From Bryobacterales bacterium (GTDB lineage Bacteria > Acidobacteriota > Terriglobia > Bryobacterales > Bryobacteraceae), in NCBI GenBank assembly GCA_947467185.1, contig CANIHR010000006.1:1-47118 (forward strand): DNA of 47,118 nucleotides. The letters run 5' to 3'. How positions within the stretch are numbered: the stretch's first letter is position 1; the number at the start of each line of letters is the position of its first letter. Shown here in pieces: positions 1,378-46,925 of this stretch. Under the pieces are notes generated by a model. That model had not been told where the DNA came from and did not search any database. It saw nothing but the letters and a program-made list of their open reading frames with translations. The translations under genes and the position numbers were made by a program.

Positions 1378-3126
1378 TTAACGAACCCAAAGCCGGATCG
1401 AGTTGGTGGTTTTGCGGCTACCGACTGTGAGAACCAGCGGTGCAGAAGTGGTCCCGGCGGGTAAGGTGGCAGGGACGCGGACGTTGATCTGAATCACGCC
1501 AACAGTGCCTGGGGCTGCGCCTGCGAAGAGAATTTCGGCAGGCTCGCCGGACATGGTGAGCGAGACGGGCAGCGTTGGCTGCGCCAGCACTGTGGCGGCG
1601 CGGCCAGTTTCCGCAGCGGGTGTCAGCAGGCCCAGGCCCGACGCGTAGAGCGTAACGACCGAACCAGCGGGTGCGGCGGCAGTGCGGGCATTGAGAGTGC
1701 CGTCTTCATTGGCGGCGAGGGCTTCAATCAGGCTGCTGGTCGTGTTGAAGAGGCCGGGGAGGGCCGCTGCCACCGGCACGGTGATTTCATTCGACGGAAT
1801 GCCTCGATTGATGGCCTGTATTTTGACGGCGGTCTTGCCGGAGACTTCGTAAGGCACCTGCACTGTGATCTGGTAGTAATCGCCCACGTAGATGGGGGCG
1901 GGGATGCCGTCGAAGCGGACTTCGATTCCGGCGAGCGCCGTGGCCAGTTTTCCGTTTTCATCCACCTGACCGGGCGCGGCAACTTCGGGCCCCACGGCCT
2001 GGCCATAGATGACGAGAATTTCGCCAGGCGCGACGGCCTCGGAGGCTCCGCCCGCGATGTTGCCAAGCTGGTCAGCTGTGAGGGAACCGAAGCCGAACGG
2101 GTCGCCCGAGGTCCAGAGAATCAGCATGGCACCGAGGCCTTGCGTGGTCGGTTCGCCACAGGTCCAGGGTTTGGTCAGCGTGGCCGGCGTGTGGTTGTCG
2201 GGGCCGAAGGCGTCCGCACCGGTAACCGTCCAGGACATCGGCTTGAAAAGCATGTAGACCAGAAGCTGGGAGACGGCGTCGCCGGCTTTGGCTGGATCGG
2301 CCGGGATGGCCCGGCAACTGGCGGAATCTTCGGCGAGCGGCAGACCCCATTCACCCGCGTAAAGAGGGAACTTTGTGGCGAGGAAACCGAAGTTCGCGTC
2401 ACGCTGCGCGTCGGTCAGGGCGTGGTCGAAGTATGGGTGAACTTCGTAGAGGATGTTGGAATCGGTGAGGTAGTTTTCGGGACCGTAGCCCTGGAAATCG
2501 AGCGCGTCGTGGAAGGCAGGCGCGGCGATCAACTGCTTCGCGCCGGCTGCGCGGATGCGGTCCACCAGTTGCTGCATGCCGAGGAGAGTTCGGCCTGATG
2601 TGGAGACCCCGCCATTTCGCCAGAAAGCCCAGTTGCGGCCACCAGGGATGACGGCGGGTGAAGGGCGGGAGTAGAGATCGAAAATAACGAGACCGTTGTC
2701 TTTGAAAGACGCGGCCCAGGCGGCCCAGAAATCACCCAGATCGGTGGTCGGCAGGCCTGTTTCGTCTTCGGTGGCGACCAGCACAACGACCAGGCCTTCG
2801 GCGTTGGCCGTTTGGACAGTTTTCGCGGTCTGCGCGAGGTATTCCACACTGTTCTGCAGCCAGGCGACGGGGCTAATGGGGATGCGGACAGTGTTGAAGT
2901 TCCAGCGCTGCCGCATGACGCGGAAGGTGGTCTGCGTCATGGCTTTGGGGTCGGAGAGCAGTGCACCCTGGAGCAGGAATTCGCGCTTTTGAGCGTCAAA
3001 GAGTTTGTTGCCGCTGACCGAGATGGGAGCGATGGGGGTGAGGGACGGCGCGGAGTGCGCGAAGGCCAGCCATGGAGCGGCCAGCAGCAAGCAACAACTG
3101 GCAAGTCGCCCTACGCTAGTATTCAT
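1378..3126 (-). CDS. Exported GH5-like protein with TIGR03437-type C-terminal domain
   Basis: 582 residues from the ATG at 3126; a GTG at 3141 would add five residues before the signal peptide and is less likely. Signal peptide at ~1-24. Residues ~35-330 resemble a glycoside hydrolase family 5 (cellulase) barrel: an RIPISPVAW segment after strand 3, an EVHPYFD segment (the HxY of GH5) and a YAGEWG segment that supplies the nucleophile glutamate. The acid/base motif, normally NEP, reads DLYSRPSP at residues ~151-158, so the glutamate is an arginine (residue 154, codon CGC). It may be non-catalytic. Residues ~360-582 are the TIGR03437-type tail shared with the genes at 3131 and 34010. The start codon is 4 bases from that of the divergent neighbour. 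Confidence 0.85.
   Translation of the reverse strand: MNTSVGRLASCCLLLAAPWLAFAHSAPSLTPIAPISVSGNKLFDAQKREFLLQGALLSDPKAMTQTTFRVMRQRWNFNTVRIPISPVAWLQNSVEYLAQTAKTVQTANAEGLVVVLVATEDETGLPTTDLGDFWAAWAASFKDNGLVIFDLYSRPSPAVIPGGRNWAFWRNGGVSTSGRTLLGMQQLVDRIRAAGAKQLIAAPAFHDALDFQGYGPENYLTDSNILYEVHPYFDHALTDAQRDANFGFLATKFPLYAGEWGLPLAEDSASCRAIPADPAKAGDAVSQLLVYMLFKPMSWTVTGADAFGPDNHTPATLTKPWTCGEPTTQGLGAMLILWTSGDPFGFGSLTADQLGNIAGGASEAVAPGEILVIYGQAVGPEVAAPGQVDENGKLATALAGIEVRFDGIPAPIYVGDYYQITVQVPYEVSGKTAVKIQAINRGIPSNEITVPVAAALPGLFNTTSSLIEALAANEDGTLNARTAAAPAGSVVTLYASGLGLLTPAAETGRAATVLAQPTLPVSLTMSGEPAEILFAGAAPGTVGVIQINVRVPATLPAGTTSAPLVLTVGSRKTTNSIRLWVR
3117..3122 (+). promoter_or_regulatory. Candidate -10 box (TAGTAT) for leaderless NHL gene
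   Basis: TAGTAT ends 8 bases before the ATG at 3131, and no Shine-Dalgarno sequence lies between them. Transcription starting about 7 bases after the box would begin at or next to the ATG. The box lies inside the divergent GH5-like reading frame. It is one of about nine starts in the window with this arrangement. Confidence 0.4.
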
Positions 3127-3130
3127 TCGG

Positions 3131-4957
3131 ATGCGTCGCACGTTTCTGATTATTCACACATTTGCCGCGCTTGCTTGTTCGCAGACTCCGGTGGTCACAA
3201 CAATCGCGGGTGGAACTCCGTTTGGGGGGGCGCCGGTGCGCGGTTTTTCAGGCGATGGCAACCTTGCGGCGAAGGCGACGCTGGCTCTGGCGAATGTGCA
3301 GAATCCGTGCGATCCGGCACGTTTTGAGCAGACTTCTCATCTCGCTTTCGATGCCGCCGGAAACTTGTATATCGCGGATTCCAATAACCAGCGCATTCGT
3401 CGGATTGGCACAGACGGCGTGATTTCCACGGTGGCGGGGTCGGGCGACAAACCAGCCACGGACTCGCGTTGCGAGGCTACGGGCGGTATCGGCGATGGTG
3501 GCGATGCCCGGTCCGCGAAGCTCTATAACCCTGGGGGGATCGCGGTCCTGCCGAATGGCAGTCTGATTATTGCCGATGAGTTGAACAACCGGATTCGCCA
3601 GGTTTCTCCGTCGGGCGTGATTTCCACGCTTGTGGGCAACGGGACGCATAATCTCTACGCGCCAGGAATCCCGGGGACGTCCTCGCCGATGGACTGGCCC
3701 AGCGCGGTTGCGGTGGATGCGAACGGCCTGGTCTACTTCGCGGAGCTGCATGGCAATCGCGTAGGGCGGATCGGGGCCGATGGACGGCTGGCGACGGTTG
3801 CAGGCAATGGCTTTCCGGGGACCACTTCGGCGTCGCTGACACGTCCGGCCGGGTTGGGTTTCGACATCGCCGGCAATCTCTATATCGCCGACTCCGGGAA
3901 TCACCGTATCCAGAAAGTGACACCAGGCGGGCAGGTGACGACTGTAGCGGGGAATCTGCAGAGGGGATTTTCGGGCGATGGTGCGGCAGCCAATCAGGCC
4001 AAGCTGGACACGCCGATGGACGTCAAGGTAGACGCGAAAAGCAATATCTACATCGCCGACACGGGCAACAACCGGATCCGCCGGGTGGATTCGAACGGCG
4101 TCATTACAACGGTTGCCGGGACGGGCGATCCCGACCGGGGCCGCGACCTGACGGACGCCACGCAATCGGCCTTCAACCAGCCTCTGGCGCTGGCGGTGGA
4201 TAAGAACAATGACGTGTATGTGGTGGACTGGCAGAATTACCTGATCCGGCGGATTACGTTCGATGGCAAGCCAGTGCTGACGCCGAGCGGTGTGGTGAAC
4301 TCAGCCAGCTTTACCGAGCCGGTAGCTCCAGGGTCGCTGGTGGCGCTGTTCGGGGCAAACCTGGGCGGGGCACTGGCGGTGAGTTCCGCGTCACCATGGC
4401 CCAATTCGTTCTCCGATGTTTCGGTAGAGGTGAACGGCAAGGCGATCCCGATTTTTGTGGTCAGCCCGGGGCAACTGGGGGCGCAGATCCCGTATGGTCT
4501 GACCCCTGGGAAAGTGGATGTATTGGCGAAGGTGGGTGGCGTGACAAGCAATACCGTCAGTGTCCCGATTGGAGCGCAGACGCCTGGGATTTATGGCCTG
4601 CCGGGAGGTCGAGCTGCCGCCCAGAATCAGGATTTTTCGCTCAACACGGCAGCGAATCCGGAATTGCGCGGGAATGCGGTGGTGCTGTATCTGACGGGGC
4701 TGGGCGAGGTGAGTCCGGGAGTGATTGCAGGTCAGGCCGCACCGCTGGACCGTGTTTCCAGGCCCACGGGTGACTTCACCGCAACGATTGGCGGAGTGAC
4801 GGCTGAGGTTCTCTACATCGGATTAACGCCAGGTGCTATCGGGCTGGCACAGGCGAATCTGCGCATCCCGGCTGGGGCACCTGCTGGAGCGGCGGTGCCG
4901 GTAGTGATTCGTGGGGGAGGCGCGGCCAGCAATGCGGCAACTATTTCGATCCGCTAG
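3131..4957 (+). CDS. Exported NHL-repeat protein with TIGR03437-type C-terminal domain
   Basis: 608 residues. The ATG at 3131 is chosen because it opens a signal peptide (MRRTFLIIHTFAALACS); the frame is open further upstream, but that stretch overlaps the divergent gene and lacks export features. Residues ~20-375 hold about six NHL-type beta-propeller blades, each with a variant of N-YIAD--N--I-R---G-ITTVAG, e.g. near residues 78-90, 145-155, 250-262 and 310-322. Such propellers usually bind proteins or glycans. Residues ~385-608 are the same tail as in the GH5-like protein and the cytochrome at 34010, with the pattern PGSLV-LFG, A-IPY, LYLTGLGE and GLAQAN-RIP. No catalytic residues are visible; the role is probably extracellular binding. 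It overlaps the next gene by 26 bases. Confidence 0.88.
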   Translation: MRRTFLIIHTFAALACSQTPVVTTIAGGTPFGGAPVRGFSGDGNLAAKATLALANVQNPCDPARFEQTSHLAFDAAGNLYIADSNNQRIRRIGTDGVISTVAGSGDKPATDSRCEATGGIGDGGDARSAKLYNPGGIAVLPNGSLIIADELNNRIRQVSPSGVISTLVGNGTHNLYAPGIPGTSSPMDWPSAVAVDANGLVYFAELHGNRVGRIGADGRLATVAGNGFPGTTSASLTRPAGLGFDIAGNLYIADSGNHRIQKVTPGGQVTTVAGNLQRGFSGDGAAANQAKLDTPMDVKVDAKSNIYIADTGNNRIRRVDSNGVITTVAGTGDPDRGRDLTDATQSAFNQPLALAVDKNNDVYVVDWQNYLIRRITFDGKPVLTPSGVVNSASFTEPVAPGSLVALFGANLGGALAVSSASPWPNSFSDVSVEVNGKAIPIFVVSPGQLGAQIPYGLTPGKVDVLAKVGGVTSNTVSVPIGAQTPGIYGLPGGRAAAQNQDFSLNTAANPELRGNAVVLYLTGLGEVSPGVIAGQAAPLDRVSRPTGDFTATIGGVTAEVLYIGLTPGAIGLAQANLRIPAGAPAGAAVPVVIRGGGAASNAATISIR

Positions 4958-10329: not shown

Positions 10330-11808
10330 TCACTGTCCCTTCGCGAATTGGCTGCCGGGGGACCATTTGGGCTTTTCGGGGGCATTGGCGATGTCTTCCA
10401 CCAGGGTTCCGAAGAAGGTATTGAACTTGTCAGCGGCCTCGGGAAGCCAGGGCTGAGTCAGGTCGTCCAGGGGCGAATGATAGCGTTTGGCGTACCACTC
10501 CCGGTAGGCGGCTTCGTCAGGCGTGCCTTTCTCGTAGCCGAAGATGAAGCCCGTGGCGGGGACACCGATCTGCATGAAATTCCAGTGGTCGGAGCGCCGG
10601 AGGAGGTTGCGTTCGGGCTCGGGATCGGGCTGGATCCGGATGCCCATGGTGCCCGCGACACGGCGGGCAGTTTCGCCCAGGGTTGATTCGTTGAGAGCCA
10701 GCATGGTGAGGGTTTTCAGTGGAAAGATGGGTCGGAGCTGGTCGAGATTGATGTTCGCGACGATGTGGTCTTTCGGAACCGTCAGGTGGCGGGCGTAGTA
10801 GCTGGAGCCGAGCAGGCCTTTCTCTTCGGCTGTGACGACGACGAACAGGATCGAACGCTTCGTGGTGCGGTGCGCGGCCTTCAGTTTTTCGGCGAAGTCG
10901 ATCAGGGTGGCGACGTAGGCGGCATCGTCGAAGGCTCCGTTGTAGATGTTGTCCTTGCCCCAGGCCTCGCCCAGACCGTAGCCATCGAGGTGGGCGGAGA
11001 TGGCTACGTATTCATTGGCGAGGGCTGGATCGGAACCGGGCAGGATGGCGAGGATGTTGTCGGAGGTGACGTCCGAAGCTTTGGAGGCGAGGGTGACTTT
11101 GAGCTGCGCGGGCAAGGAGAACCAGGGTAGCGCTTTCCCGGCACGGGCGGCTTCCAGCAGTTCTTTATAAGTGTGGCCCGAGCCAGCTAAGAGGAGTTCG
11201 GCTTCCGCTGGATTGAAACGGAAAGTCATCGCAGATGCCGCAGCCGGTTTCGCCTCGGCGAGGCGCATCGAAACCAGATACTGGACGGGCCATCGAGGTG
11301 CTTCGGTGCCGTCAGGATTATCGACGCCCAGGGTTGCCACGGACCCGGCAGGGAGTGACTTCGCAGTGTGGCCCGTTAGTTGGACCACGATCTTTCCGGC
11401 GACACTGAAGTCCGCCGGAGCCTCGCCCGTCCCGGCAAAGACCAAACCGGCCTCCAGCTTTGCGGGCAGGTTCTCCTGCATCCGGAAAGCGATCTGATGG
11501 AGCCAGCGCAGTTTCGTCGAAGCGCCGTTGCGAACGAGTTCGACGGAGGACGCCGACGGGTCAAACCGAACCTGATGCAGCGGCACCGACTGGAAGTAGC
11601 CCTTCTCGCCTGCCGCCTTCAGACCCGCCTTTTCAAACTGCGTGGCGACATAGCGGGCGGCCTTCTGATACTCCTCCGTCCCCGCCTCGCGGCCCTTCAT
11701 GGAATCGCCCGAGAGCGCAACGATATGCGACCACCAGTTTCTCGTTGCCGCATCGGGTTCGACGGCGAAAAGCGTTCCGCAAAGGAAGAGCAGCGAGAGA
11801 TAGCGCAT
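10330..11808 (-). CDS. Exported M28-family zinc metallopeptidase
   Basis: 492 residues from the ATG at 11808, which opens a signal peptide (MRYLSLLFLCGTLFA). A GTG nine codons upstream would place extra residues before it. The M28 aminopeptidase fold is supported by the two-zinc ligand set: HLD (His273, Asp275), FDDA (Asp294 or 295), the TAEEKG motif (catalytic Glu328, ligand Glu329), NINLDQ (Asp356) and SDHWNF (His408). Residues ~120-235 between the N-terminal part and the catalytic core look like an inserted PA-type domain. Such enzymes remove N-terminal residues from peptides in the periplasm or outside the cell. A TAGCCT box ends 7 bases before the ATG and no Shine-Dalgarno is present. 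The tRNA-Met gene follows directly. Confidence 0.92.
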   Translation of the reverse strand: MRYLSLLFLCGTLFAVEPDAATRNWWSHIVALSGDSMKGREAGTEEYQKAARYVATQFEKAGLKAAGEKGYFQSVPLHQVRFDPSASSVELVRNGASTKLRWLHQIAFRMQENLPAKLEAGLVFAGTGEAPADFSVAGKIVVQLTGHTAKSLPAGSVATLGVDNPDGTEAPRWPVQYLVSMRLAEAKPAAASAMTFRFNPAEAELLLAGSGHTYKELLEAARAGKALPWFSLPAQLKVTLASKASDVTSDNILAILPGSDPALANEYVAISAHLDGYGLGEAWGKDNIYNGAFDDAAYVATLIDFAEKLKAAHRTTKRSILFVVVTAEEKGLLGSSYYARHLTVPKDHIVANINLDQLRPIFPLKTLTMLALNESTLGETARRVAGTMGIRIQPDPEPERNLLRRSDHWNFMQIGVPATGFIFGYEKGTPDEAAYREWYAKRYHSPLDDLTQPWLPEAADKFNTFFGTLVEDIANAPEKPKWSPGSQFAKGQ

Positions 11809-11815
11809 GGGAGAG

Positions 11816-11821
11816 AGGCTA
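11816..11821 (-). promoter_or_regulatory. Candidate -10 box (TAGCCT) for leaderless M28 gene
   Basis: On the minus strand TAGCCT is followed by 7 bases and then the ATG at 11808. There is no Shine-Dalgarno sequence in the gap. Only 34 bases separate this start from the rnpB 5' end, so the two divergent promoters must overlap. Confidence 0.4.
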
Positions 11822-12255: not shown

Positions 12256-12261
12256 TAATCT
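12256..12261 (+). promoter_or_regulatory. Candidate -10 box (TAATCT) for leaderless thiO-like gene
   Basis: TAATCT ends 8 bases before the GTG at 12270 and begins 1 base after the predicted 3' end of rnpB. There is no Shine-Dalgarno sequence. Any -35 element would lie inside the rnpB 3' domain. Confidence 0.4.
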
Positions 12262-12269
12262 TAAAGTTA

Positions 12270-13277
12270 GTGGAACGCATCAACGTAGTGGGCGCGGGCC
12301 TCATCGGTCTGGGTAGCGCGTGGCGTCTGGCTCAAAAGGGCGCCGAAGTGACCGTTTTCGATGCCCGCGACGCTGGCTGCGAGGCCAGTTGGACCGCCGC
12401 CGGCATGCTGGCTCCGGGTGGTGAATTCTTTGAACCCTCCGAACTTGCGACGCTGGGAATGCGCAGTCTGGCAATGTACCCCGACTTCGTCCGAGAGTTG
12501 GAAGAGGACTCGGGCGTCACCATCGACTATTCCCGTTCCGGCGCCATTGAAGTTGCCTATTCCGACGCGGAAGCAGCGGCGCTGGAAACCCGGGCGGCGG
12601 CACAAAAGCTCTGCGGTATCCCCTCGGAAGCGTGTAAACATGACAGCCGTCCGGCCCGATTTTTCCCCGAAGATGCCCACGTTGACCCTCGCGATCTGAC
12701 CCGCGCGCTACGGGTTGCCTGCCAGCGCCGCGGGGTGAACTTGCTGGAAAATGAGCCGATCACTAAAATTTCAGCAGATGGGCGCGTCTGGACGGCAAAC
12801 GGCGTGAATGCAGGCAGCGTCACACTTGTGGCCGCCGGAGCGTGGAGTTCCGCACTATTGACCGACCTTCCCGGACCCAGGCCGGAGGTGATTCCGGTGA
12901 GGGGCCATCTGATATCCTGGCCGTTGCGGGCTGGTCTGCTGGGTCCGATTCTGCGGCACGGATCCACCTACATGGTGCAGCGGCGATCGGGCGTTTTGCT
13001 GGCGGGGACCACCAGGGAGTACGTTGGCTTTGATCGGACGCTGGATGAGACTGCGCTTGCCGAAATTCAGGCTCGTGCCGAAGAACTGCTGCCGTTGCTG
13101 GCCGGACAGGCGCCCACTGAACGCTGGAATGGCTTCCGCCCGTTTGTGGAGGGCGAGCTTCCGTGGATTTCACAACTGGGCCGCAGCTGCGTTTGGGCCG
13201 CTTACGGGCATTACCGGAACGGCATCCTGCTGGCTCCGGAGACCATTCAGCGCGTGGCGGGATACCTGCTTGCGTAA
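12270..13277 (+). CDS. thiO: FAD-dependent glycine oxidase-like protein (ThiO family)
   Basis: 335 residues from the GTG at 12270 (MERINVVGAGLIGLGSAW). The frame is open upstream, but that part lies in rnpB. The N-terminus is a Rossmann dinucleotide-binding fold (GAGLIG at residues ~9-14, with an acidic VFDA end of strand 2). SWTAAGMLAPGGE at ~40-52 is typical of ThiO, and the C-terminal FAD-binding part reads GHYRNGILLAP. ThiO oxidises glycine to iminoacetate for the thiazole part of thiamine in aerobes. No other thiamine gene is near, so a related D-amino-acid oxidase activity is possible. The stop overlaps the start of the efflux outer-membrane gene by 8 bases. Confidence 0.85.
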   Translation: MERINVVGAGLIGLGSAWRLAQKGAEVTVFDARDAGCEASWTAAGMLAPGGEFFEPSELATLGMRSLAMYPDFVRELEEDSGVTIDYSRSGAIEVAYSDAEAAALETRAAAQKLCGIPSEACKHDSRPARFFPEDAHVDPRDLTRALRVACQRRGVNLLENEPITKISADGRVWTANGVNAGSVTLVAAGAWSSALLTDLPGPRPEVIPVRGHLISWPLRAGLLGPILRHGSTYMVQRRSGVLLAGTTREYVGFDRTLDETALAEIQARAEELLPLLAGQAPTERWNGFRPFVEGELPWISQLGRSCVWAAYGHYRNGILLAPETIQRVAGYLLA

Positions 13278-19661: not shown

Positions 19662-20621
19662 CTACAGCTTAATCGGGCGCGCGTCGACTTCTTCGTAGAC
19701 TTCGCGCGTCTGTTCCAGCGAAGCAAAGCTCATGCCGGGCAGTTTGGCTGAGGCCGTCCCGGCCGCAACACCCCACCGCACCGCGTCCGCAAAATCCCCC
19801 GTTTTATCCAGCGACCAGAGAATGGCAGCCGCCAGCGCATCGCCTGCGCCGATGGGAGAAATCGCATCGATGCGGGGTGGAATCGCTTCCCACATGGCAA
19901 TGGAGTCCGCTTCGGCACCGGGCAGGCCGCTGGTGAGCGCGATCGCGCCGCGGCTGCCAAGGGAAAGCACCACGGAAGCAGCACCCAGGGAGTGAATCCG
20001 CTTCGCAGCGGCGATGGCCTGCGTACGGGTCAGCAGCACGGTATTCAGTAAACGTTCGGCTTCCTGCTGGTTGGGAGTCACGATGGTGGGGCCGGCTTCA
20101 ATGCCGCGGGCCAGCGCTTCGCCGTCGGTATCGAGCAGGGTCTTCACGCCGCGGGCGTGGCAGCGTTCAATGAGCTGGGCGTAGAAATCGGAAGGCACGC
20201 CGGGTGGCAGACTGCCGCAGAGCGCCAGCCAGGACGCTTTTTCCAGGTATTTATCGACTGTGGCGACAACGCCTTCAATTTCACGGGCCGCCATGCGAGG
20301 GCCAATCTCGTTCAGCTTGATGGTGAGGCCGTGGCGATCCGTGATGGTCAGGTTCAGGCGGACATCGTTGCGGATGGGCACTGTCGCGACCTGGAAGCCG
20401 CAGCCAGTCAGCGACTGCTCAAAGCGTTCGCCATGGTCGCCGCCCGCCGGGATGATGGCGAGGGTCTCGCCGCCGAACGCGTGTACGACACAGGCCGCGT
20501 TAATACCCCGGCCTCCGGGGGATTCGTTGCTGGAAAGAATGTAGGCGCGATCGTCGAACGCGAGCCGATCGACTCCGATGGTCCGGTCGATCGCCGGATT
20601 CATGGTCAGGGTGACTATCAA
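19662..20621 (-). CDS. PfkB-family sugar kinase (1-phosphofructokinase-like)
   Basis: 319 residues from a TTG at 20621 (MIVTLTMNPAIDRTIGVD), chosen because TLTLNPAID-type starts are constant in this family; longer versions would overlap the upstream gene. The substrate-binding signature is GGRGINAAC (~38-46), where the usual form is GGKGIN. The ATP and catalytic-base signature is PIGAGDALAAA (Asp of GAGD, ~residue 257). The family phosphorylates fructose-1-phosphate, tagatose-6-phosphate or fructose-6-phosphate. No PTS genes are nearby, so the substrate is uncertain. It follows the membrane-spermidine-synthase gene by 32 bases. A TATCCT box ends 6 bases before the TTG, so it may have its own leaderless transcript. 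Confidence 0.88.
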   Translation of the reverse strand: MIVTLTMNPAIDRTIGVDRLAFDDRAYILSSNESPGGRGINAACVVHAFGGETLAIIPAGGDHGERFEQSLTGCGFQVATVPIRNDVRLNLTITDRHGLTIKLNEIGPRMAAREIEGVVATVDKYLEKASWLALCGSLPPGVPSDFYAQLIERCHARGVKTLLDTDGEALARGIEAGPTIVTPNQQEAERLLNTVLLTRTQAIAAAKRIHSLGAASVVLSLGSRGAIALTSGLPGAEADSIAMWEAIPPRIDAISPIGAGDALAAAILWSLDKTGDFADAVRWGVAAGTASAKLPGMSFASLEQTREVYEEVDARPIKL

Positions 20622-20627
20622 GCTCTT

Positions 20628-20633
20628 AGGATA
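20628..20633 (-). promoter_or_regulatory. Candidate -10 box (TATCCT) for leaderless sugar kinase gene
   Basis: On the minus strand TATCCT is followed by 6 bases and the TTG start at 20621. It lies in the 32-base gap after the preceding gene. The only purine-rich stretch in the gap (AAGAG) is too close to the start to be a normal Shine-Dalgarno. Confidence 0.35.
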
Positions 20634-20653: not shown

Positions 20654-22738
20654 CTATTGCAGGATGCTCAGCATGTTGGAAAAATCGTCCGTCCACATCC
20701 GAAACTTTGTGAATGGGGCAAGCACGCGGCCTGTCTTGAGGGAGTCGGCCGAAGCCAGCAGGTCTTTATCTACCAGCAGCGCCCAGGAGGACGAGTTGCA
20801 GAGCATGTCTTCGTCTTTGGCGGTGTAGTCGAGGATAACGGCTTTGCGGCCAAACGCCGTGGCGGCGCGCTCCATCACGGGCTGCAAGTCGAGATAGCGG
20901 TTGCTGATGTTGACCGCGAGGATCCCGCCCGGCTTCACGTGGCGGAAGTATGTGGCAAACGCCTCCCTGGTGATCAGGTGGACCGGAACGGAATCGCCCG
21001 AAAAGGCATCCATCACAAGAAGGTCGAACTGCTGGGAGGGTTCGCGTTCCAGCACCAGGCGGCCGTCGCCGAGCGAGACTTCCACCTTCGCCGGGGTGTC
21101 TTTCAGGTAGGTGAACCAGGTCCGGGCCATATCGAGGACCAGGGGGTTGATCTCGTAGATGCGGAAGGTGTCTCCGGCGCGGCCATAGGGGGCAAGAGCG
21201 CCCGCGCCGAGGCCGAGGATACCAACCTTCCAGTTGGTGTTTGGCAGCCGCGTCTGCATGGCGTGGCCGATACCGCTGGCTTCACAGAAATAGGCGACGG
21301 GGGTCCGCTGCAGCTTCGGATCGAGCATCTGGATACCGTGATTGATGCGGCCGTGGAGCAGTTTGCGGTCGGCGTCGATATCAGTATCGACATTGCCTTC
21401 ATCCTCGACGCGCAGTTGCCCGTAGAAGTTCCGCGCGATGGCCCGATAGCCACTGATGTTGTATTTCGTGATGGAGGCCACCCAACCGGCATAGCCCAGA
21501 ACCAGCACCGTCAGACCCCAACCGAGGGGTTTACGGTACGGCGCCGCACCAAAAGAATTCCAGTCGCGGAAGAGCAGGAAAGCGGCGAGGCCCGCGCAAA
21601 CCACGAGCGCGATGGGAAATTCATGGTACGCATTGAAGACGTTGGGTGCCACCAAGCCGACAAACAAGCCACCAATCGCGCCGCCGATGGACACCATCAC
21701 GTAGTATCCGGTCAGGCGGCTGGGGTGGGGTTTCAGGCGCGCCAGTTCGCCGTGGCAGACCATGCAGCAGACAAACAGTGCCGCGGCAAGGAGGGCGATG
21801 GTGATACCCATGTTCATCCGCAGAGACCGGGGCTGCAGATACCAGGCGAAGCAGACCAGCGCCCCGATCAGCAGGGGGAAAAAGACGGTGCGGTTGTAGA
21901 AGCGTTGCGATTCGAAACAGAGGATAAAAGTGATGAGGTAGACGGCCAGCGGCAGAACCCAGAGGAACGGGATGGCGGCTACGTCGGAGGTGAGAAAGGT
22001 GGTGACGGCGAGAAGCAGGGTGGAGGCGCAGGCCGCAAGGGCGATCCATATGGTGCGGAGGCCGACTGTCGGGGCGTCACCCTGCTTTTCAGTGAGTTTG
22101 GGTTCGTTTTTTCCAGCGGCCGGCGCGGAGCGGGCGGCAATCCAGGCGGCCGTCGCGCAACTGATGGCGAACACCGCGTAGCCGGTGGACCAGGCCCAGC
22201 TCTGCGTACGCACCGTGAAATTCGGTTCAATCAGGACGGGGTAGCTCAGCAGCGCCAGCATGGACGCGAAATTGGAGAGCGCAAAAAGGCGGTAGGGGAC
22301 GGAACCGGCGCGGCGGGCGTACCACGATTGCAGCAGGGGGCTGGTGGTGGAAAGGGCGAGGTACGGCAGGCCGATGGTGACGCTGAGCAGGCCCAGAATC
22401 AGCAGGGAGGGATCGCTGGCATCGGTCGGCTTCCACTTTGCACCGGGAAGGACGGGGAGGACGGCCAGACTCAGGACCAGCAGGATGGAATGGACAATCG
22501 CCTGACGGCGGGGCGGCAGCGCGTGGAGCCAGTGCGCGTAGACGTAGCCGAGCAGCAAAGCCATCTGAAAGAACAACATACAGGTGCTCCAGACGGCCGA
22601 GGTCCCGCCAAACCACGGCAGGATCATCTTCGCGATCATGGGCTGAACCTGGAAAAGCAGGAACGCGGAGACGAAGATGGTGAGCGCGTAGAGCCACGCG
22701 TCCCAGCCGTTGCGAGTTGTATTGGAGGAGGATGGCAT
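20654..22738 (-). CDS. Fused MFS-like membrane / spermidine synthase-like protein
   Basis: 694 residues. The N-terminal ~430 residues hold about twelve hydrophobic helices (first: LYALTIFVSAFLLFQVQPMI, ~16-35). From ~455 to 660 a spermidine-synthase-like Rossmann domain follows: GILGLGAGALAPYG (nucleotide-binding glycine motif), RIYEINP, SLGDGRL, and LVMDAFSGDSVPVHL with the catalytic aspartate region. Fused MFS/spermidine synthase proteins are a recognised family, but their substrate is unclear, and no decarboxylase for polyamine synthesis is next to it, so true spermidine synthesis is not assured. A TAATTC box ends 8 bases before the ATG. The gap to the upstream mutarotase-fold gene is 38 bases. 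Confidence 0.9.
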   Translation of the reverse strand: MPSSSNTTRNGWDAWLYALTIFVSAFLLFQVQPMIAKMILPWFGGTSAVWSTCMLFFQMALLLGYVYAHWLHALPPRRQAIVHSILLVLSLAVLPVLPGAKWKPTDASDPSLLILGLLSVTIGLPYLALSTTSPLLQSWYARRAGSVPYRLFALSNFASMLALLSYPVLIEPNFTVRTQSWAWSTGYAVFAISCATAAWIAARSAPAAGKNEPKLTEKQGDAPTVGLRTIWIALAACASTLLLAVTTFLTSDVAAIPFLWVLPLAVYLITFILCFESQRFYNRTVFFPLLIGALVCFAWYLQPRSLRMNMGITIALLAAALFVCCMVCHGELARLKPHPSRLTGYYVMVSIGGAIGGLFVGLVAPNVFNAYHEFPIALVVCAGLAAFLLFRDWNSFGAAPYRKPLGWGLTVLVLGYAGWVASITKYNISGYRAIARNFYGQLRVEDEGNVDTDIDADRKLLHGRINHGIQMLDPKLQRTPVAYFCEASGIGHAMQTRLPNTNWKVGILGLGAGALAPYGRAGDTFRIYEINPLVLDMARTWFTYLKDTPAKVEVSLGDGRLVLEREPSQQFDLLVMDAFSGDSVPVHLITREAFATYFRHVKPGGILAVNISNRYLDLQPVMERAATAFGRKAVILDYTAKDEDMLCNSSSWALLVDKDLLASADSLKTGRVLAPFTKFRMWTDDFSNMLSILQ

Positions 22739-25361: not shown

Positions 25362-25367
25362 TACAAT
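25362..25367 (+). promoter_or_regulatory. Candidate -10 box (TACAAT) of the SSS symporter gene
   Basis: TACAAT ends 11 bases before the GTG at 25379, giving a leader of only about 5 bases. No Shine-Dalgarno is present. The -35 is not clear. Confidence 0.4.
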
Positions 25368-25378
25368 CGCCGAAGCCC

Positions 25379-28619: not shown

Positions 28620-30893
28620 TCAGCGATAGAGCAAGTACTTCTCACGCAATTTCAGGAAGTCGTCCATGCCTTTTCGGCCGGCTTCCTGTGCGTCAGAACC
28701 CTTCCCCAAAGCTTCAATCACCGCAGCATTCCCGATCAGTTTCCAGTTCACGCTGAAGTCGAGTTTTTTGGGATAGAGTTGCGCCAGCGCATTTGCGACC
28801 TCCAGGCCAAACCGACCAGCGTTAAACGCGTCGCGATTTGTAAGAGTAAAACCTACACCCTCAATCAGCTTTCCGGACAAATGCGACGACGTTGGCTTCA
28901 GCGTTAGGGAGTAAAACTTCACCCCGGGAATGTCACGGGCATTCAGATTCGCAGCGAGTTCCGCGCCCCTGATCCATTCCGCCCCCACCACTTCAAACGG
29001 CGTATCGGTACCGCGACCGACCGAATAGTTGGTGGAATACTCGAGCAGGGCCACGCCGGGGTAAAGAATTGCCGCCGTCAGGCTACGGATATTAGGCGAG
29101 GGATTGACCCACGGCAGGCCCGTTTCATCAAACCACTGCGACCGCTTCCAACCGGAACACTCCACCACATGGAGGTCCGCACCGAGGTGCTTCTGGTCAT
29201 TTTCCAGCTTCGCCAGCTCACCTAGCGTCATACCGTGGCGCAGCGGGATGGGGTGCGCGCCCACAAAAGAGGTCTTCTCGGGGTCCAGCATGGGGCCTTC
29301 CGGGTGCAACCCGGTAAGTGGATTCGGGCGATCCAGCACATAATAGGGAATTTTGGCCTTCGCAGCCTCCTCCATCGCATACAGCATGGTGGAAGGGTAG
29401 GTGTAGAAGCGCGCACCGATATCCTGGATGTCGAAAACGAGAATATCGATACCCTTCAGCATTTCGGGTGTTGGGCGAAGGGTGGTGCCGTAAAGGCTCC
29501 AGACCTTGATGCCGGTAGCCGCGTCGGTCGTATTGCCAAGACCCTCTTTATCTTCCACACCAGCGAAGCCGTGTTCGGGCGAAAACAAAGCCGCGATTTG
29601 AATTCCGGCCTTGCGCATAAGATCTATGTTGCGATTTTTTAGACGATCAATCCCCGAATGGTTGGTAATGAGGCCGATCTTCTTGCCCTGAAAGGGAGCG
29701 AAGTTGTTGGCGGCCAGAACATCCAGGCCATTCAAAACAGGCGCGACCGGGGGCAAAGCACTCGCCGTCGGCTGCGTATACCCGAATGCGCGCGCCACGA
29801 CCGTGGCCACCTGACGACGGATCGGCGTGATCGGCTTGCGCTGGTGGGGATGAACGGAATTCGTCAGGAAGATAACGTAGCTCTTCGAACCGGGATCGAC
29901 CCAGATGGAGGTTCCAGTGAAGCCGGTGTGACCGAACGACTTTCCGGCCGGGAACAGATCGCCCCGGTTCCCGGAGTAGGGAGAGTCGATATCCCAGCCG
30001 AGTCCGCGCTGAATCTTCTGGTCGGTGGGCGTATGGGAGGTGGTGAACTGCTGAATGACTTCCGGCTTGAAGAGGCCTTTGCCGCCATCAAGCAGCATCT
30101 GGCAGAACTTCGAGAGGTCGTCGGCTGTGGAAAACAGGCCGGCATGACCGGCAACTCCGCCCATGTACTGCGTCGTCGGGTCGTGGACGATGCCGCGGAG
30201 AATCGAGCCGTCTTTCTGCATTTCGGTGGGTGCGATACGGGATTTCAGGCTAGGGGGCGGCAGGAAACCGGAGTCTTTCATGCCGAGGGGGTCAAGCAGG
30301 ACCTTCTTTACATACTCGTTTTCCGGCGAACCGCCCACGCGGCGGACAATTTCGCCGATCAGGATGAAATTAATGTCGCTGTAGACGAATTTGGTGAGGC
30401 GGGGATTGGCCGGTTTGTCATTGAGGGCCAGCTTGATGCCGGTTTGGTAGCCGCTCCAGACCGGTTTCAGGTCCAGATCGGGGCGGAAGCCGGAGAAGTG
30501 GGTCATCAGGTCGCGGACCGTGATGGCGCTGTTGCCGCTCTGGAATTCGGGAAGATACTTCGTGACCGGGGCGTCGATTTCGACCTTGCCCTGCTCCACC
30601 AGCTTCATCATGCAGGTTGTGGTGGCGACAACTTTGGTGAGTGACGCGACGTCGAAAATGGTGTCGACCGTCATCGGCTCGCGGGTGGGGGAGAGCGAAC
30701 GGTTCCCGTAGGCCTTGCGGTAGACGACCTTGCCTTCGTGCCCGATCAGGAGCACGGCGCCGGGAAAACGGTCCTCCCGGATGGCGTCATTGATCACGGT
30801 ATCGACCTCCGCGGCGGCCGGAAAGGTCTGTGCGGAGAGCAGCGGGGCGGAAATCGCGGCGCAGGTGAGCGCCACTACCAGTTTCAGCTTCAT
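28620..30893 (-). CDS. Exported fusion of a beta-lactamase-like serine hydrolase and a NamZ-type (DUF1343) muramidase
   Basis: 757 residues from the ATG at 30893 (MKLKLVVALTCAAISAPLL), a signal peptide; an ATG three codons earlier is also possible. Residues ~25-370 are a class-C-like serine hydrolase: SLTK at 84-87 holds the nucleophile Ser and Lys, YSD near 171 is the second motif (usual YxN), and GHTGFTG gives the third (HTG for KTG). Residues ~390-757 match DUF1343/NamZ, exo-beta-N-acetylmuramidase: KKIGLITNHSG, FSPEHGFAG, DIQDIGARFYTYPSTM, DRPNPL and EYSTNYSVGRGTDTPFE. Together the domains suggest periplasmic trimming and recycling of peptidoglycan fragments. A TACCAT box ends 7 bases before the start. 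Divergent from the GH28 gene. Confidence 0.92.
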   Translation of the reverse strand: MKLKLVVALTCAAISAPLLSAQTFPAAAEVDTVINDAIREDRFPGAVLLIGHEGKVVYRKAYGNRSLSPTREPMTVDTIFDVASLTKVVATTTCMMKLVEQGKVEIDAPVTKYLPEFQSGNSAITVRDLMTHFSGFRPDLDLKPVWSGYQTGIKLALNDKPANPRLTKFVYSDINFILIGEIVRRVGGSPENEYVKKVLLDPLGMKDSGFLPPPSLKSRIAPTEMQKDGSILRGIVHDPTTQYMGGVAGHAGLFSTADDLSKFCQMLLDGGKGLFKPEVIQQFTTSHTPTDQKIQRGLGWDIDSPYSGNRGDLFPAGKSFGHTGFTGTSIWVDPGSKSYVIFLTNSVHPHQRKPITPIRRQVATVVARAFGYTQPTASALPPVAPVLNGLDVLAANNFAPFQGKKIGLITNHSGIDRLKNRNIDLMRKAGIQIAALFSPEHGFAGVEDKEGLGNTTDAATGIKVWSLYGTTLRPTPEMLKGIDILVFDIQDIGARFYTYPSTMLYAMEEAAKAKIPYYVLDRPNPLTGLHPEGPMLDPEKTSFVGAHPIPLRHGMTLGELAKLENDQKHLGADLHVVECSGWKRSQWFDETGLPWVNPSPNIRSLTAAILYPGVALLEYSTNYSVGRGTDTPFEVVGAEWIRGAELAANLNARDIPGVKFYSLTLKPTSSHLSGKLIEGVGFTLTNRDAFNAGRFGLEVANALAQLYPKKLDFSVNWKLIGNAAVIEALGKGSDAQEAGRKGMDDFLKLREKYLLYR

Positions 30894-30900
30894 TATTCGC

Positions 30901-30906
30901 ATGGTA
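30901..30906 (-). promoter_or_regulatory. Candidate -10 box (TACCAT) for the serine hydrolase-NamZ gene
   Basis: On the minus strand TACCAT is followed by 7 bases and the ATG at 30893. No Shine-Dalgarno is seen. If transcription starts at that ATG, the in-frame ATG at 30902, which lies within the box, cannot be used. Confidence 0.35.
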
Positions 30907-32334: not shown

Positions 32335-32340
32335 TAGCTT
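32335..32340 (+). promoter_or_regulatory. Candidate -10 box (TAGCTT) for leaderless pgi
   Basis: TAGCTT ends 8 bases before the ATG at 32349, in the 16-base gap after the GH28 gene. The short purine run AGGTAAAG is close to the start and could be a weak ribosome binding site, so this case is less clear than others. Confidence 0.3.
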
Positions 32341-32348
32341 AGGTAAAG

Positions 32349-33968
32349 ATGGAGCCTCTTACTTCCCTTCCCGCCTGGCAGGCACTTGAAAGCCATGCCG
32401 CTCAGGTAAAACCGTTGCATTTGCGGGACTTATTCGCCGCTGACCCTGGGCGCGCTGACCGTTTCTCGCTGGAAGCCGAAGGTTTATTCCTCGATTATTC
32501 GAAGAACCGTATCACCGAAGAAACGCTGCCCCTGATGCTGCAGTTGGCCGAAGAGAGCGAGCTACGCGGCAAGATTGACGCCATGTTCCGGGGTGACCGG
32601 ATCAATATTACAGAGAATCGCTCTGTCCTCCACACCGCGCTGCGTGCCCCTCGCGACCGGAAGATCGTGGTGGATGGCATGGATGTGGTGCCGCCAGTGC
32701 ACCAAGTTCTGGACCGGATGAGCGAGTTTGCAAACCGCGTCCGCTCCGGCGAATGGCTGGGCTTCACAGGCAAGAAGATCCGCAATGTGGTGAATATCGG
32801 GATCGGCGGGTCGGATCTGGGGCCGGTGATGGCATTTGAAGCGCTGCGACACTATTCGCAGCGCGACCTGAATATCCGCTTTGTTTCCAACGTAGACGGC
32901 ACGGATTTCGCCGAGGCCACGCACGATCTGCAGGCCGACGAAACACTGTTCATCGTTTCCTCGAAGACATTCACGACGCTGGAGACCATGACGAACGCCA
33001 AATCGGCGCGTGCGTGGGTACTGGCGCAACTGGGCGACGAAAGGGCCGTTGCCAGCCACTTCGTCGCTGTCTCGACCAATGCCGAAAAAGTGACTGCGTT
33101 CGGGATCGACACCGCCAACATGTTCGGTTTCTGGGACTGGGTTGGTGGCAGGTATTCGATGGATTCCGCGATTGGACTGTCGTCGATGATCGCGATTGGC
33201 CCGGACAACTTCCGGGCACTACTTGCGGGCTTCCACGCGATGGACGAGCACTTCCGGACCGCGCCATTCGCCGAAAACCTGCCGGTGCTGATGGCCCTGC
33301 TCACCGTTTGGTACAACAATTTCTTCGGCGCGCAGTCCATCGCCGTCCTCCCATATGACCAGTATTTGAAGCGCTTCCCTGCCTACCTGCAGCAGCTCAC
33401 CATGGAGAGCAACGGCAAGTACATCACGATGGCTGGCGAGCGGGTGAGCTGGGAAACCAGTCCGATTTACTGGGGCGAACCGGGCACGAACGGTCAGCAT
33501 TCCTTCTATCAGTTGATCCACCAGGGCACGAAGCTGATCCTCTGCGACTTTATTGGGTTCGTTAATTCACTCAATCCGCACGGCCCGCACCACGACATTC
33601 TGACCGCCAACCTCTTCGCTCAGGCCGAAGCTCTGGCGTTTGGAAAAACGGCGGATGAGGTCCGGGCCGACAACAACCCCGAGTGGCTGGTGCCGCACAA
33701 GGTATTTGAAGGTAACCGGCCTTCGAACATGCTGCTGGCCGACCGCCTGACGCCGGAAATTCTGGGCAAGCTGATCGCGCTCTACGAGCACAACGTCTTC
33801 GTTCAGGGCATTATCTGGCAGGTGGATTCCTTCGACCAGTGGGGTGTGGAGTTGGGTAAAGTGCTCGCGGTTCGTATTCAGCCGGAACTGACGACCGACG
33901 CCGAACTGAAGCACGACAGTTCGACCAACGCGCTGATTCGCCGTTACCGGCAGCGCCGTAACCTGTAG
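32349..33968 (+). CDS. pgi: Glucose-6-phosphate isomerase
   Basis: 539 residues, close to the ~545 of the long bacterial and eukaryotic type. It interconverts glucose-6-phosphate and fructose-6-phosphate in glycolysis and gluconeogenesis. Diagnostic stretches are [15 protein letters not shown] (~149-163), which binds the phosphate with SSKTFTT (~203-209); [12 protein letters not shown] (~259-270); [20 protein letters not shown] (~376-395), which contains catalytic Glu and His; and a C-terminal segment [10 protein letters not shown] (~496-505), with the catalytic lysine. All expected residues are present. It sits 16 bases after the polygalacturonase gene and is followed after 41 bases by the cytochrome gene. 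Confidence 0.97.
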
Positions 33969-33995: not shown

Positions 33996-34001
33996 TAGGA
34001 T
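33996..34001 (+). promoter_or_regulatory. Candidate -10 box (TAGGAT) for leaderless cytochrome gene
   Basis: TAGGAT ends 8 bases before the GTG at 34010, with no Shine-Dalgarno in between. This supports 34010 rather than the in-frame GTG at 33989 as the start. Confidence 0.4.
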
Positions 34002-34009
34002 TCAGTACA

Positions 34010-36595
34010 GTGCGCAAACCCCTGATTTCCCCGTGCATTTTGACGGGACTCCTGCTCGCGGCCGCGAGCAGCCTGCCCGCCGCGACCTGGACTGTCCTCG
34101 CATGGAGTGAGCGAGGTATGAATCCGGTGGAGCGTGACTATTCCGTCTTCGGGATCTGGCCCGCCGGTGCCCACATTAACGCCCAGGTTCTGGATAGTGG
34201 CGGCAAACTGGTCACCAGCACCAGTGCTGGCAATATCCGGGTCACCTGGGAGGCACTGGCCGATTCGACGGGCAGCGTGAACACCACCTCAGCCGGGAAG
34301 ACGAATTTCTGGCCCTTCGCCAAGGCTCTGTTCGGTGGTTCCGACAAGACCGGAGTGGGCATCACCGGCAACCTGATGCCTGAATCAGGGCCACAGGCGC
34401 TTTCCTTTGACGCCACGCTAAACCGGTTCCGCGCCGACTGGATCCCGATTACCGCCTACGATGACCAGTGGAATGTCAACTATTCGCCTCAGGTTCGCAT
34501 GATTGTGCGGGACGCGAACGGCGTGATTCTGGCCACCGCCCGCACCACTGTCCCGGTTTCGAATGAAGTCGAGTGCCGAAGTTGCCATGCGTCAGGGGTG
34601 AATACCGACGCCCGGCCGCTGACGGGCTACGTGAACGATCCCGACCCGAATCGCGACTTTAAGCTGAACATCCTGGCGCTGCATGACGGGAAGAATCGGA
34701 GAAATCCGACGTACACGGCTGCGGCGGCGAAAGTCGGCTATGGGGTTAGCCTTCTGGATACCTCGACAACCGGAACACCGATCCTATGTACGAACTGCCA
34801 TGGTTCGAATCTGCGTTCGACGCCCGGTATTTCCGGGATCAGCCAGTTCACGACGGCGATGCACGGGCATCACGCTTCTGTGGTCGACCCAGCAACAAAG
34901 GACTCGCTCGACAACTCGACGAACCGCGCAGCCTGTTACAACTGCCACCCAGGCAAGACAACGCAATCTCTGCGGGGCGCAATGGGGCATTCGATTGACG
35001 CGAGCGGCAATCAGCAGATCCAGTGCCAGAACTGCCATGGCAATCTGACGAAACTGGCCGACGCGACCCGCGTCAGCTACACGACGCAGCCGCAATGCCA
35101 GAGCTGCCATACGACGGCTTCGCCATATCAGGCAACTTCAGTTTTTGACGCTTCGGGGAATGTGAAAACCACATCCGACACGACTTTCGCCACAAGCACG
35201 GCCCTCTTCAGGAACTCGACAGGCCACGGTGGTTTGCAGTGTTCGGCCTGTCACGGCCCGGCGCACGCGGAGTATCCGTCGAATAAAGCTGCCGACAACC
35301 TGCAGTCGCAGGATGCGCAGAACGCCGCCGGCGTGATCGGCGATTGCGCCGCCTGCCATAAGAGTGGCGTCAGCACCACAACCGGCGGGCCACATGGGCT
35401 GCATCAGGCTGGCTCTACGTGGATCTCCGCGCACCAGAATGTCGCCTCGCGCAACCGAACCCAGTGCACCACGTGCCACGGCGGCGGTTACCAGGGCACG
35501 GTACTCTCGCGAGTCCTTGCGCCGCGAACCCTTTCCAGTTCCCTTACAAATATCACGGCGTTCAAGGGTTACCAGGTGAGTTGCTACACCTGCCACAACG
35601 GGCCGGGCGGCAGCGGGACCGCGCCTGCCGGCGCGACGATGCCCAATACGACCGGGTCGGTGACGGTGGGCCAGTCGGTCACGATCCCTGTTACCGTCCC
35701 CACCGGCGCAACCCTGAAGATCGTCTCGCAGCCGGCCCGCGGCATCGCGAATGTCTCCGGCAACAGCATTGTTTACCGGCCCACGGTTTCGTTCGAAGGC
35801 ACCGACCCGGTGACTTACTCGGCCATCAGTTCCGCCGGCAAGGATTCCAGTCTGGGTACCGCGCAGGTTACCGTACGTCCGGCCAGCCGTCCGGCAATTA
35901 CATCGGTCGGCAATGCCGCAAGCTACGTGACGGGCACGATCGCGCCGGGCATGATCGCTTTCTTCGCCGGCACAAACATGGGGCCGACCAATCTGGCAAC
36001 CTTCGGTCTGAGTTCCGGCGGCTTCATGGAGAAGTCGGTCCAGGCGACGCGGGTCCTTTTCGATGGAGTTGCATCGCCCGTCATCTACACATCTGCCACC
36101 GCCGTCGCGGCCATCGTGCCGTACAGCGTGCAGGGCAAGGGAACGACAACGATCAACCTGGAATACGACGGGATACTCTCCCCACCCATCTCCGCCACAG
36201 TAGCGGACGCGGGACCCGGCATCTTCACTTCCGACGCCACCGGCACAGGACCAGCCGCTTCCATCTCGGGCGGAGGCCTCAATTCGGCCAGCAATCCGGT
36301 CGCGCGTGGTGACGCCATAGCCCTCTACCTGACCGGCGACGGTCTCGAAACACCCTTGCCTAAAGACGGCGTACTGGTGAATGGACCTTACCCCGCCACA
36401 GTTGCGTTGGTCTCGGTCATCATCGGCGGGAAACCTGCCAGAGTCGTTTACTCCGGAGCTGCACCGTCATCTGTGGCCGGCCTCATGCAGCTGAATGCTG
36501 TGGTCGCGGCGGATGCGGATACCGGCAAAGTACCGGTTACGGTCACCATAGGCGGCGTCACCTCGCAACCGAACGTGTTTGTTTTCGTCCGTTAA
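34010..36595 (+). CDS. Exported nine-haem c-type cytochrome with Ig-like and TIGR03437-type domains
   Basis: 861 residues from the GTG at 34010 (MRKPLISPCILTGLLLAAAS), a signal peptide. Residues ~25-185 are a beta-rich domain (YSVFGIWPAGAHINAQV) that I recall in other cytochromes of this kind. Nine CxxCH haem motifs follow: CRSCH ~189, CTNCH ~260, CYNCH ~309, CQNCH ~339, CQSCH ~363, CSACH ~411, CAACH ~446, CTTCH ~486 and CYTCH ~525. Extra histidines (HGHH, GHGG, HGLH) may be distal ligands. Residues ~540-620 resemble an Ig-like/cadherin-like domain, and ~630-861 the TIGR03437-type tail. It is probably exported for electron transfer at the cell surface or periplasm; no quinol oxidase or porin partner lies nearby. 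Confidence 0.9.
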   Translation: MRKPLISPCILTGLLLAAASSLPAATWTVLAWSERGMNPVERDYSVFGIWPAGAHINAQVLDSGGKLVTSTSAGNIRVTWEALADSTGSVNTTSAGKTNFWPFAKALFGGSDKTGVGITGNLMPESGPQALSFDATLNRFRADWIPITAYDDQWNVNYSPQVRMIVRDANGVILATARTTVPVSNEVECRSCHASGVNTDARPLTGYVNDPDPNRDFKLNILALHDGKNRRNPTYTAAAAKVGYGVSLLDTSTTGTPILCTNCHGSNLRSTPGISGISQFTTAMHGHHASVVDPATKDSLDNSTNRAACYNCHPGKTTQSLRGAMGHSIDASGNQQIQCQNCHGNLTKLADATRVSYTTQPQCQSCHTTASPYQATSVFDASGNVKTTSDTTFATSTALFRNSTGHGGLQCSACHGPAHAEYPSNKAADNLQSQDAQNAAGVIGDCAACHKSGVSTTTGGPHGLHQAGSTWISAHQNVASRNRTQCTTCHGGGYQGTVLSRVLAPRTLSSSLTNITAFKGYQVSCYTCHNGPGGSGTAPAGATMPNTTGSVTVGQSVTIPVTVPTGATLKIVSQPARGIANVSGNSIVYRPTVSFEGTDPVTYSAISSAGKDSSLGTAQVTVRPASRPAITSVGNAASYVTGTIAPGMIAFFAGTNMGPTNLATFGLSSGGFMEKSVQATRVLFDGVASPVIYTSATAVAAIVPYSVQGKGTTTINLEYDGILSPPISATVADAGPGIFTSDATGTGPAASISGGGLNSASNPVARGDAIALYLTGDGLETPLPKDGVLVNGPYPATVALVSVIIGGKPARVVYSGAAPSSVAGLMQLNAVVAADADTGKVPVTVTIGGVTSQPNVFVFVR

Positions 36596-43074: not shown

Positions 43075-43150
43075 TTGCAGTACGTCCTCAGTTTTTGTTA
43101 TAACTCCAGGCTACGAAATTGACTTCAGCCCCCCCGGGGGAGGGCTCGCC
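43075..43150 (+). promoter_or_regulatory. Promoter and structured ribosome binding site of the TPR/YvcK/GlmU unit
   Basis: A -35 TTGCAG (43075-43080), 18-base spacer and -10 TATAAC (43099-43104) give a transcript start near 43111. The leader then holds AGCCC (43127-43131) pairing with GGGCT (43142-43146), with C-run and G-run between, so the Shine-Dalgarno GGGGGAGGG before the ATG at 43153 can be buried in a GC hairpin. Confidence 0.5.
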
Positions 43151-43152
43151 TT

Positions 43153-43707: not shown

Positions 43708-43742
43708 TTCCGGACTTAAGACCCGCCGGGAGATAAGTACCC

Positions 43743-46153: not shown

Positions 46154-46154
46154 T

Positions 46155-46160
46155 TAGAAT
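46155..46160 (+). promoter_or_regulatory. Candidate -10 box (TAGAAT) for leaderless sugar isomerase gene
   Basis: TAGAAT ends 6 bases before the GTG at 46167 and starts 1 base after the glmU stop codon. No Shine-Dalgarno is present. It is one of the clearest examples of the leaderless arrangement in the window. Confidence 0.45.
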
Positions 46161-46166
46161 GTATCC

Positions 46167-46925
46167 GTGCATCTCGGCTGCGTAACTTACAACGTCCTGA
46201 AGGACCTCGACCTCGAAAGCATCATCAAACTGCTGGAGGCAACCGGCTTTGAAGCGGTGGAACTTCGCACCGAGCACAAGCACGGTATTGAACCCTCAAT
46301 TTCTGCCGAAGAGCGGGCGAAAGTGAAGGCTCGTTTCGAACGAAGCAAGGTCCGCCTGCTCAGCTACGGCACTACCTGCGAGTTTCAGTCGCCCGACCCC
46401 GCCATTCGTCGGAAGAACATTGACCTGGCAAAAAAATGGATCGAACTGGCGCATGACACGGGTGCCTGGGGCGTGAAGGTACGGCCGAATGGTCTGCCGG
46501 CCGGAGTCCCCGTAGAGACCACGCTGCGGACCATCGGAGAAGCCCTGCGCGAAATCGGTGAATACGGGGAGGGGTATGGCGTTGAGATCTGGATGGAAGT
46601 CCATGGTCGGGATACACAGAACCCGCCGAACGCCGCCACCATTCTAAAGGCCGCGAACCACCGGAATGTCGGTGCTTGCTGGAATTCGAACCCGACCGAC
46701 GTAGTAAATGGCTCGGTAAAGCAGAGCTTTGAACTGCTGAAGCCGTACCTCCGCAGCGCCCACATCAACGAACTGGCCAACCCGGACTACCCCTGGCGCG
46801 AACTTTTCACGCTGATCAAGCAGGCGAATTACGAGCGCTACACGCTTTGCGAATGCGCGGAGACGAAGGACCCCGAGCGCTTCCTCCGTTACTACAAAGC
46901 CCTCTGGCGCGAACTCGGCGGTTAG
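46167..46925 (+). CDS. Sugar phosphate isomerase/epimerase-type TIM-barrel protein
   Basis: 252 residues, no signal peptide. The fold matches the xylose-isomerase-like TIM barrel (AP_endonuc_2 family): GFEAVELRTEHKHG (~27-40) near strand 2, WGVKVRPNG, VEIWMEVHGRDT (~147-158), ACWNSNPTD, SAHINELANPDYPW (~194-207) and LCECAETKD (~225-233). Glu, His and Asp in these motifs would bind a divalent metal. Such proteins interconvert sugars or sugar derivatives; the substrate is unknown. The gene follows glmU by 13 bases, but with its own TAGAAT box, and precedes tmRNA. Confidence 0.88.
   Translation: MHLGCVTYNVLKDLDLESIIKLLEATGFEAVELRTEHKHGIEPSISAEERAKVKARFERSKVRLLSYGTTCEFQSPDPAIRRKNIDLAKKWIELAHDTGAWGVKVRPNGLPAGVPVETTLRTIGEALREIGEYGEGYGVEIWMEVHGRDTQNPPNAATILKAANHRNVGACWNSNPTDVVNGSVKQSFELLKPYLRSAHINELANPDYPWRELFTLIKQANYERYTLCECAETKDPERFLRYYKALWRELGG

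Follow-up and report, generated by a model that had tools for sequence, protein, structure and literature searches.

The TAnnnT hexamers that recur a few bases before start codons in this Bryobacterales genome are best read as sigma-70-type −10 elements that give leaderless or near-leaderless genes, a reading to which we assign a probability of about 85% on the strength of sequence comparisons. Each box would be the −10 of a housekeeping (sigma-70-type) promoter, with the consensus GnTAnnnT and without a detectable −35, lying so near its gene that the RNA begins either on the start codon or just a few bases ahead of it. Ribosomes would then load at the 5′ end of the RNA without a Shine-Dalgarno (SD) site, and the genome would employ such starts for roughly one gene in seven, beside its ordinary SD genes. 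The preliminary description of this DNA had taken the boxes to imply RNAs that begin at the start codon, and in this it was probably right; both the start of transcription at the codon and the leaderless translation are what we infer from the positioned motif. If the RNA starts 7 bases past the box, gaps of 8–10 (the gap being the number of bases separating the end of the box from the start codon) give leaders of about 2–4 bases, so “leaderless” here stands for zero to a few bases. New in this analysis is the rare start codon TTG, kept directly behind a −10-like element across relatives in pfkB, thyX, and dut.

The window, that is, the whole stretch of DNA analysed, is contig C6 (47,118 nt) of an assembly of 5.78 Mb in 496 contigs. 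A 16S search gave no match in the 496-contig assembly; the closest named relative of the phosphoglucose isomerase (32349) is that of Bryobacterales bacterium isolate RYN_16 (80%). Over the 40 bases that precede this gene, RYN_16 is identical to G016, which belongs to the same genus as our genome according to its listing. Outer-membrane receptor and cytochrome families are present among the proteins found. Starts were picked in a motif-blind manner, by coding potential and start-codon type with upstream signals ignored, over 1.197 Mb of the own genome (875 genes, 852 of them with 90 bases upstream). The weights of a second, motif-aware pass were set by hand after the profile had been viewed.

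All ten hexamers listed in the preliminary description lie where it placed them, and the eight strong ones end 6–8 bases before a start. On the plus strand, TAGTAT (3117–3122, gap 8; 3117–3133 with the codon) precedes the ATG at 3131, a start that was also picked motif-blind, while TAATCT (12256–12261, gap 8; 12256–12272) stands before the GTG at 12270 of an FAD-dependent oxidoreductase. The same strand carries TAGCTT (32335–32340, gap 8; 32335–32351) before the ATG at 32349 of phosphoglucose isomerase, TAGGAT (33996–34001, gap 8; 33996–34012) before the GTG at 34010 of a multihaem cytochrome, and TAGAAT (46155–46160, gap 6; 46155–46169) before the GTG at 46167 of a xylose-isomerase-like protein. 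On the minus strand we find TAGCCT (11821–11816, gap 7; 11806–11821) before the ATG at 11808 of an M28 peptidase, TATCCT (20633–20628, gap 6; 20619–20633) before the TTG at 20621 of a PfkB-family kinase, and TACCAT (30906–30901, gap 7; 30891–30906) before the ATG at 30893 of a beta-lactamase/NamZ fusion. As for the weaker cases, the hexamer offered for 22738, TAATTC, does lie 8 bases before the start, but it does not fit TAnnnT. The four genes named as having normal SD sites indeed have them: CAGGAG before 10113 and 28355, TGGAGG before 36641, and GGGAGG before 25134.

The boxes in the window exceed chance, as had been claimed: TAnnnT at gap 6–8 occurs in 8 of 31 motif-blind genes, with 0.8 expected (binomial P about 1e-6). 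One of these eight, at 25068, is probably spurious: the start seems to have been misplaced into a signal peptide, and its SD-led alternative is 25134. The gene starting at 20621 is missing from the motif-blind eight, the blind start there being 20603. The motif-aware pass returned, for the window, exactly the eight genes of the preliminary description.

The boxes are largely kept in the close congeners, for which we compared the syntenic contigs G007 C446 and G015 C130 with the window. Counting motif-blind starts with an alignment from residue 1 and at least 60% identity, TAnnnT at gap 5–9 is kept at 11 of 12 positions in orthologs of box genes vs. 0 of 31 in those of non-box genes, where two of the 11 belong to the doubtful start 25068 (9 of 10 when it is excluded). 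At 30893, box and spacing are the same in the window, G007, and G015, whereas the DNA farther upstream diverges. At 12270 the box reads TAATCT in G007 and TACTTT in G015, both at gap 8, so that the hexamer is altered while TA..T and the spacing are retained; in many more distant congeners it is missing or displaced. Upstream of 32349, TAnnnT stands at gap 8 in G007 and G015 and at gap 6 in G016, and is often absent or shifted in more distant congeners. The box of 11808 is retained in G007, and other congener orthologs have one with different letters. That of 46167 recurs as TAnnnT at gap 6–7 in G007, G015, and two other congeners (before a GTG or ATG start) and is absent from the three orthologs of about 60% identity. 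The weakest of the eight is 34010, whose box is kept neither in G015 nor in four further orthologs compared. For 3131, no ortholog was found on the two syntenic congener contigs. Two further elements lie farther from their genes. TACAAT, at gap 11 before the GTG at 25379 (25362–25381, plus strand), is kept in G007 and G015, there 12 bases before a TTG, and is probably a −10 that gives a leader of about 5 bases rather than a leaderless RNA. The TAGAAT some 28 bases upstream of the GTG start at 38931, kept in two congeners (as TAAAAT in G015), looks like a promoter with a short leader.

The positional enrichment proposed for the genome as a whole is borne out in the 1.2 Mb of it that we scanned. 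Over gap 5–10, 118 boxes stand before the 852 genes vs. 41.6 expected, with a peak at gaps 6–9 (29, 22, 21, and 22, on a background of about 7 per gap); a box at gap 6–8 precedes 72 of the 821 genes that lie outside the window, where 21.4 are expected. The same pipeline gives no peak in E. coli (5 vs. 12.8 expected, 146 genes) and does give one in D. radiodurans MP1 (11 vs. 2.9 expected, 103 genes). For the order-level relative G022 it counts 26 vs. 9.4 expected (251 genes), and for the congener G005 it finds a weak peak (18 vs. 10.8 expected, 203 genes). The box excess is greatest where the upstream neighbor is divergent (15.9% of 240 genes), the co-directional classes having 3.9–8.7%. The preliminary description had also held that two modes of initiation coexist, and in agreement with this an SD core precedes 4 of 118 box genes vs. 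197 of 739 others, though part of this exclusion is a mechanical effect, as the two signals would have to occupy the same bases.

Could the peak simply reflect A/T-rich DNA, or stop codons that end just before a start? In-frame TAA and TAG did add to the unmasked counts at gaps 6 and 9, and yet the signal outlasts the masking of in-frame stops and of upstream-gene stops (95 boxes vs. 35.9 expected), so that we rejected a stop-codon artefact. Within the masked set, T is specifically favored at the sixth base after TA (0.44 vs. 0.26 at background TA sites; Fisher p 2e-7). General A/T richness is ruled out by the pattern controls: among 640 three-letter patterns at gap 5–10, TA...T takes rank 2 (ranks 1, 3, and 4 are SD trimers), and A/T patterns that share its fixed positions have enrichment ratios of 0.64–1.54 vs. 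2.83 for TA...T itself. Together with the retention of boxes in the congeners, these controls make such an artefact extremely improbable. Nor do we give much more credit to the idea that the box is a translation signal in a leadered RNA, such as an A/U-rich site for ribosomal protein S1. Signals of that type have been proposed for SD-less genes of other phyla, according to the accessible text of PMC5397173. Against it, hexamer, spacing, and the G two bases upstream all match a −10. That G is present in 55% of 103 aligned boxes, and in 69 of 128 boxes vs. 132 of 355 in the background (p 8e-4); because it matches the G position of the extended −10, it supports the −10 reading. The fifth base of the aligned boxes is A or C in 79%. 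Extended −10 forms moreover replace the box in pfkB, and thyX and dut share one symmetric element across both strands (see below), all of which makes a translation signal very improbable.

A more serious rival, though still an unlikely one, accepts real −10 boxes but has them give RNAs with short leaders (about 2–10 bases), so that translation would be SD-less yet leadered. The excess does reach gaps 8–11 (21, 22, 15, and 15), and the box of 25379 stands at 11–12 bases in three genomes. The maximum at gap 6–7, however, lies where a start 7 bases past the box hits the codon, and for GTG starts the boxes peak at gap 6. Several observations also speak against the −10 boxes of leaderless genes that we prefer: besides the weak peak in G005, no −35 element was found when one was sought (best TTGACA match 2.74 vs. 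2.81 in control boxes), and the extended form TGn[ACG]AnnnT is not enriched as a general class in the own genome (17 vs. 13.6). In addition, one of the eight window boxes is not kept in a close congener, and several are lost in distant ones.

How many genes would be leaderless can be estimated from the motif-aware classes, which divide 872 genes into 174 with a box, 254 with an SD, and 444 with neither. Ten shuffles gave a mean of 52.9 box genes, which leaves a net share of about 14%; this fraction is only approximate because the gene finder used here misplaces starts, above all ahead of signal peptides. The comparisons with earlier work that follow draw on the accessible parts of the papers cited. 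Our share fits the in silico work of Zheng et al. 2011 (PMC3160421), who reported leaderless genes in three of three Acidobacteria genomes with a mean of 13.3% (9.7–19.4). The preliminary description knew of no systematic description in this group; an in silico one thus exists, and the leaderless layout had already been predicted for Acidobacteria, with that three-genome prediction as the prior basis as far as we searched the literature. Our box genes are like the TA-led genes of Zheng et al., in which the first T of TANNNT lies some 12 bases ahead of the start (gap 6) in a high-GC genome. Nothing essential in that account differs from ours, which covers a further genus and contributes conservation and masking controls. 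A literature search from which subscription papers were mostly absent turned up no mapping of transcription start sites in Acidobacteria. In Deinococcus-Thermus (PMC12340547), TANNNT likewise stands a few bases before ORFs, needs no −35, and yields leaderless mRNA; there it concerns about 30% of ORFs and its function has been tested, whereas here it concerns about 14% of genes and is predicted from the sequence. A bacteria-wide motif scan is mentioned in the same paper, in the accessible part of which Acidobacteria are not named. Mycobacterial leaderless transcripts (PMC4633059) are similar in that SD-less genes occur beside SD-led ones, and in our genome it is ATG and GTG that hold the excess.

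Split by start codon, the box counts are 94 vs. 31.1 expected for ATG, 26 vs. 8.9 for GTG, and 8 vs. 4.4 for the 59 TTG genes. The last of these is not convincing, so we do not regard TTG as a general leaderless codon. Since TTG genes as a class lack a clear box excess, the claim for TTG rests on pfkB, thyX, and dut, which look like retained special cases. Our tentative proposal, held at slightly less than even odds, is that UUG is a selected, working start on (near-)leaderless mRNAs of pfkB in this acidobacterial family, and that thyX and dut are both transcribed as such messages from a single symmetric −10.

For pfkB we examined 43 loci from 11 genera (the window gene at 20621–19662 on the minus strand, L258–L275, and L384–L407), 42 of which are readable and one is interrupted by a contig end. 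The start is TTG in 39 of the 42 orthologs, GTG in two, and ATG in one; inside the genus it is TTG in 17 of 18, and across ten other genera of the family in 22 of 24. These counts are not independent, as several loci come from close relatives, e.g., five from genus g17 with GATAAAATGA. A −10-like element lies 5–7 bases before the TTG in 35 of the 39, and exactly 6 bases before it in 33. Of these elements, 24 are TAnnnT and 11 are TGn[ACG]AnnnT, the latter at the same gap of 6; the replacement of one form by the other at this gap fits a −10 and not a ribosome signal. An SD core precedes pfkB in 1 of the 42 orthologs. By the patterns used, four TTG orthologs are without an element, one of them (L387) having an SD core; among the non-TTG genes, the ATG ortholog (G005) has no element, and in the two with GTG a TAnnnT stands at gap 9. 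Upstream of the TTG, 24 of the 39 orthologs have an in-frame stop with no intervening ATG, GTG, or TTG; the codons that follow the TTG differ at their third positions, yet the start of the protein is preserved. An ATG at codon 7 was rejected as the true start, as it occurs in only 16 of 42. The nearest upstream gene is divergent at 21 of the 42 loci, co-directional at 12, and was not found at 9. In the window it is co-directional and 32 bases away; the stretch directly upstream (20654–22738, minus strand) encodes a 694-residue protein with no Pfam match.

The thyX (PF02511) and dut (PF00692) genes form a divergent pair in the own genome, at L133 15749 (minus strand) and 15766 (plus strand), where 16 bases separate the two TTG start codons, which are 17 bp apart. 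When the relatives (L415–L432) are included, all 17 readable thyX rows, the own genome among them, have TTG at gap 6, a further row being incomplete; of the 18 dut rows, 14 start with TTG (gap 5, 6, or 8) and four with ATG. A shared symmetric TATSATA between the two codons was matched by script in 15 of 19 loci, in which 16–20 bases separate the codons. The arrangement resembles bidirectional promoters with a symmetric −10 (PMC12825309, PMC10268837, as far as their accessible text goes), TATSATA being readable on both strands. Start sites in such promoters are usually 18 bp apart, so those of thyX and dut would fall on the start codons or right beside them; unlike in the known bidirectional promoters, they would coincide with the codons and give two leaderless mRNAs. 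That TTG stands on either side might also stem from a palindromic operator, although in several loci the outer arms of the palindrome are imperfect. The ATG at codon 11 may likewise be the real thyX start, against which stands the observation that the codons preceding it vary mainly at third positions. Two other divergent pairs on own contigs (L017 25263 and L126 17118) have boxes on both strands, with 11 and 34 bases between the predicted starts.

In the accessible text of PMC4633059, TTG works poorly as a leaderless start codon in mycobacteria, whereas pfkB and thyX here retain it; in P. acnes, UUG makes up 3% of leaderless starts (PMC3848588, accessible part). The conserved TTG thus poses the question of whether such ribosomes can use a 5′-terminal UUG, and why the family would keep it. 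If our proposal holds, leaderless UUG would break the mycobacterial rule of ATG and GTG only and would suggest dosage control by a weak codon, or else regulation of a start site that lies on U. More generally, gene finders tuned to SD sites misplace starts in such genomes, and for Acidobacteriota the present analysis adds a positional and conservation-based case with concrete test genes.

As a minor observation, residues of about 620–860 of the multihaem cytochrome at 34010–36595 (the last 240 or so) have 27 matches in the own genome and 28 in G007; judging by these matches, this part is a widely shared C-terminal module.
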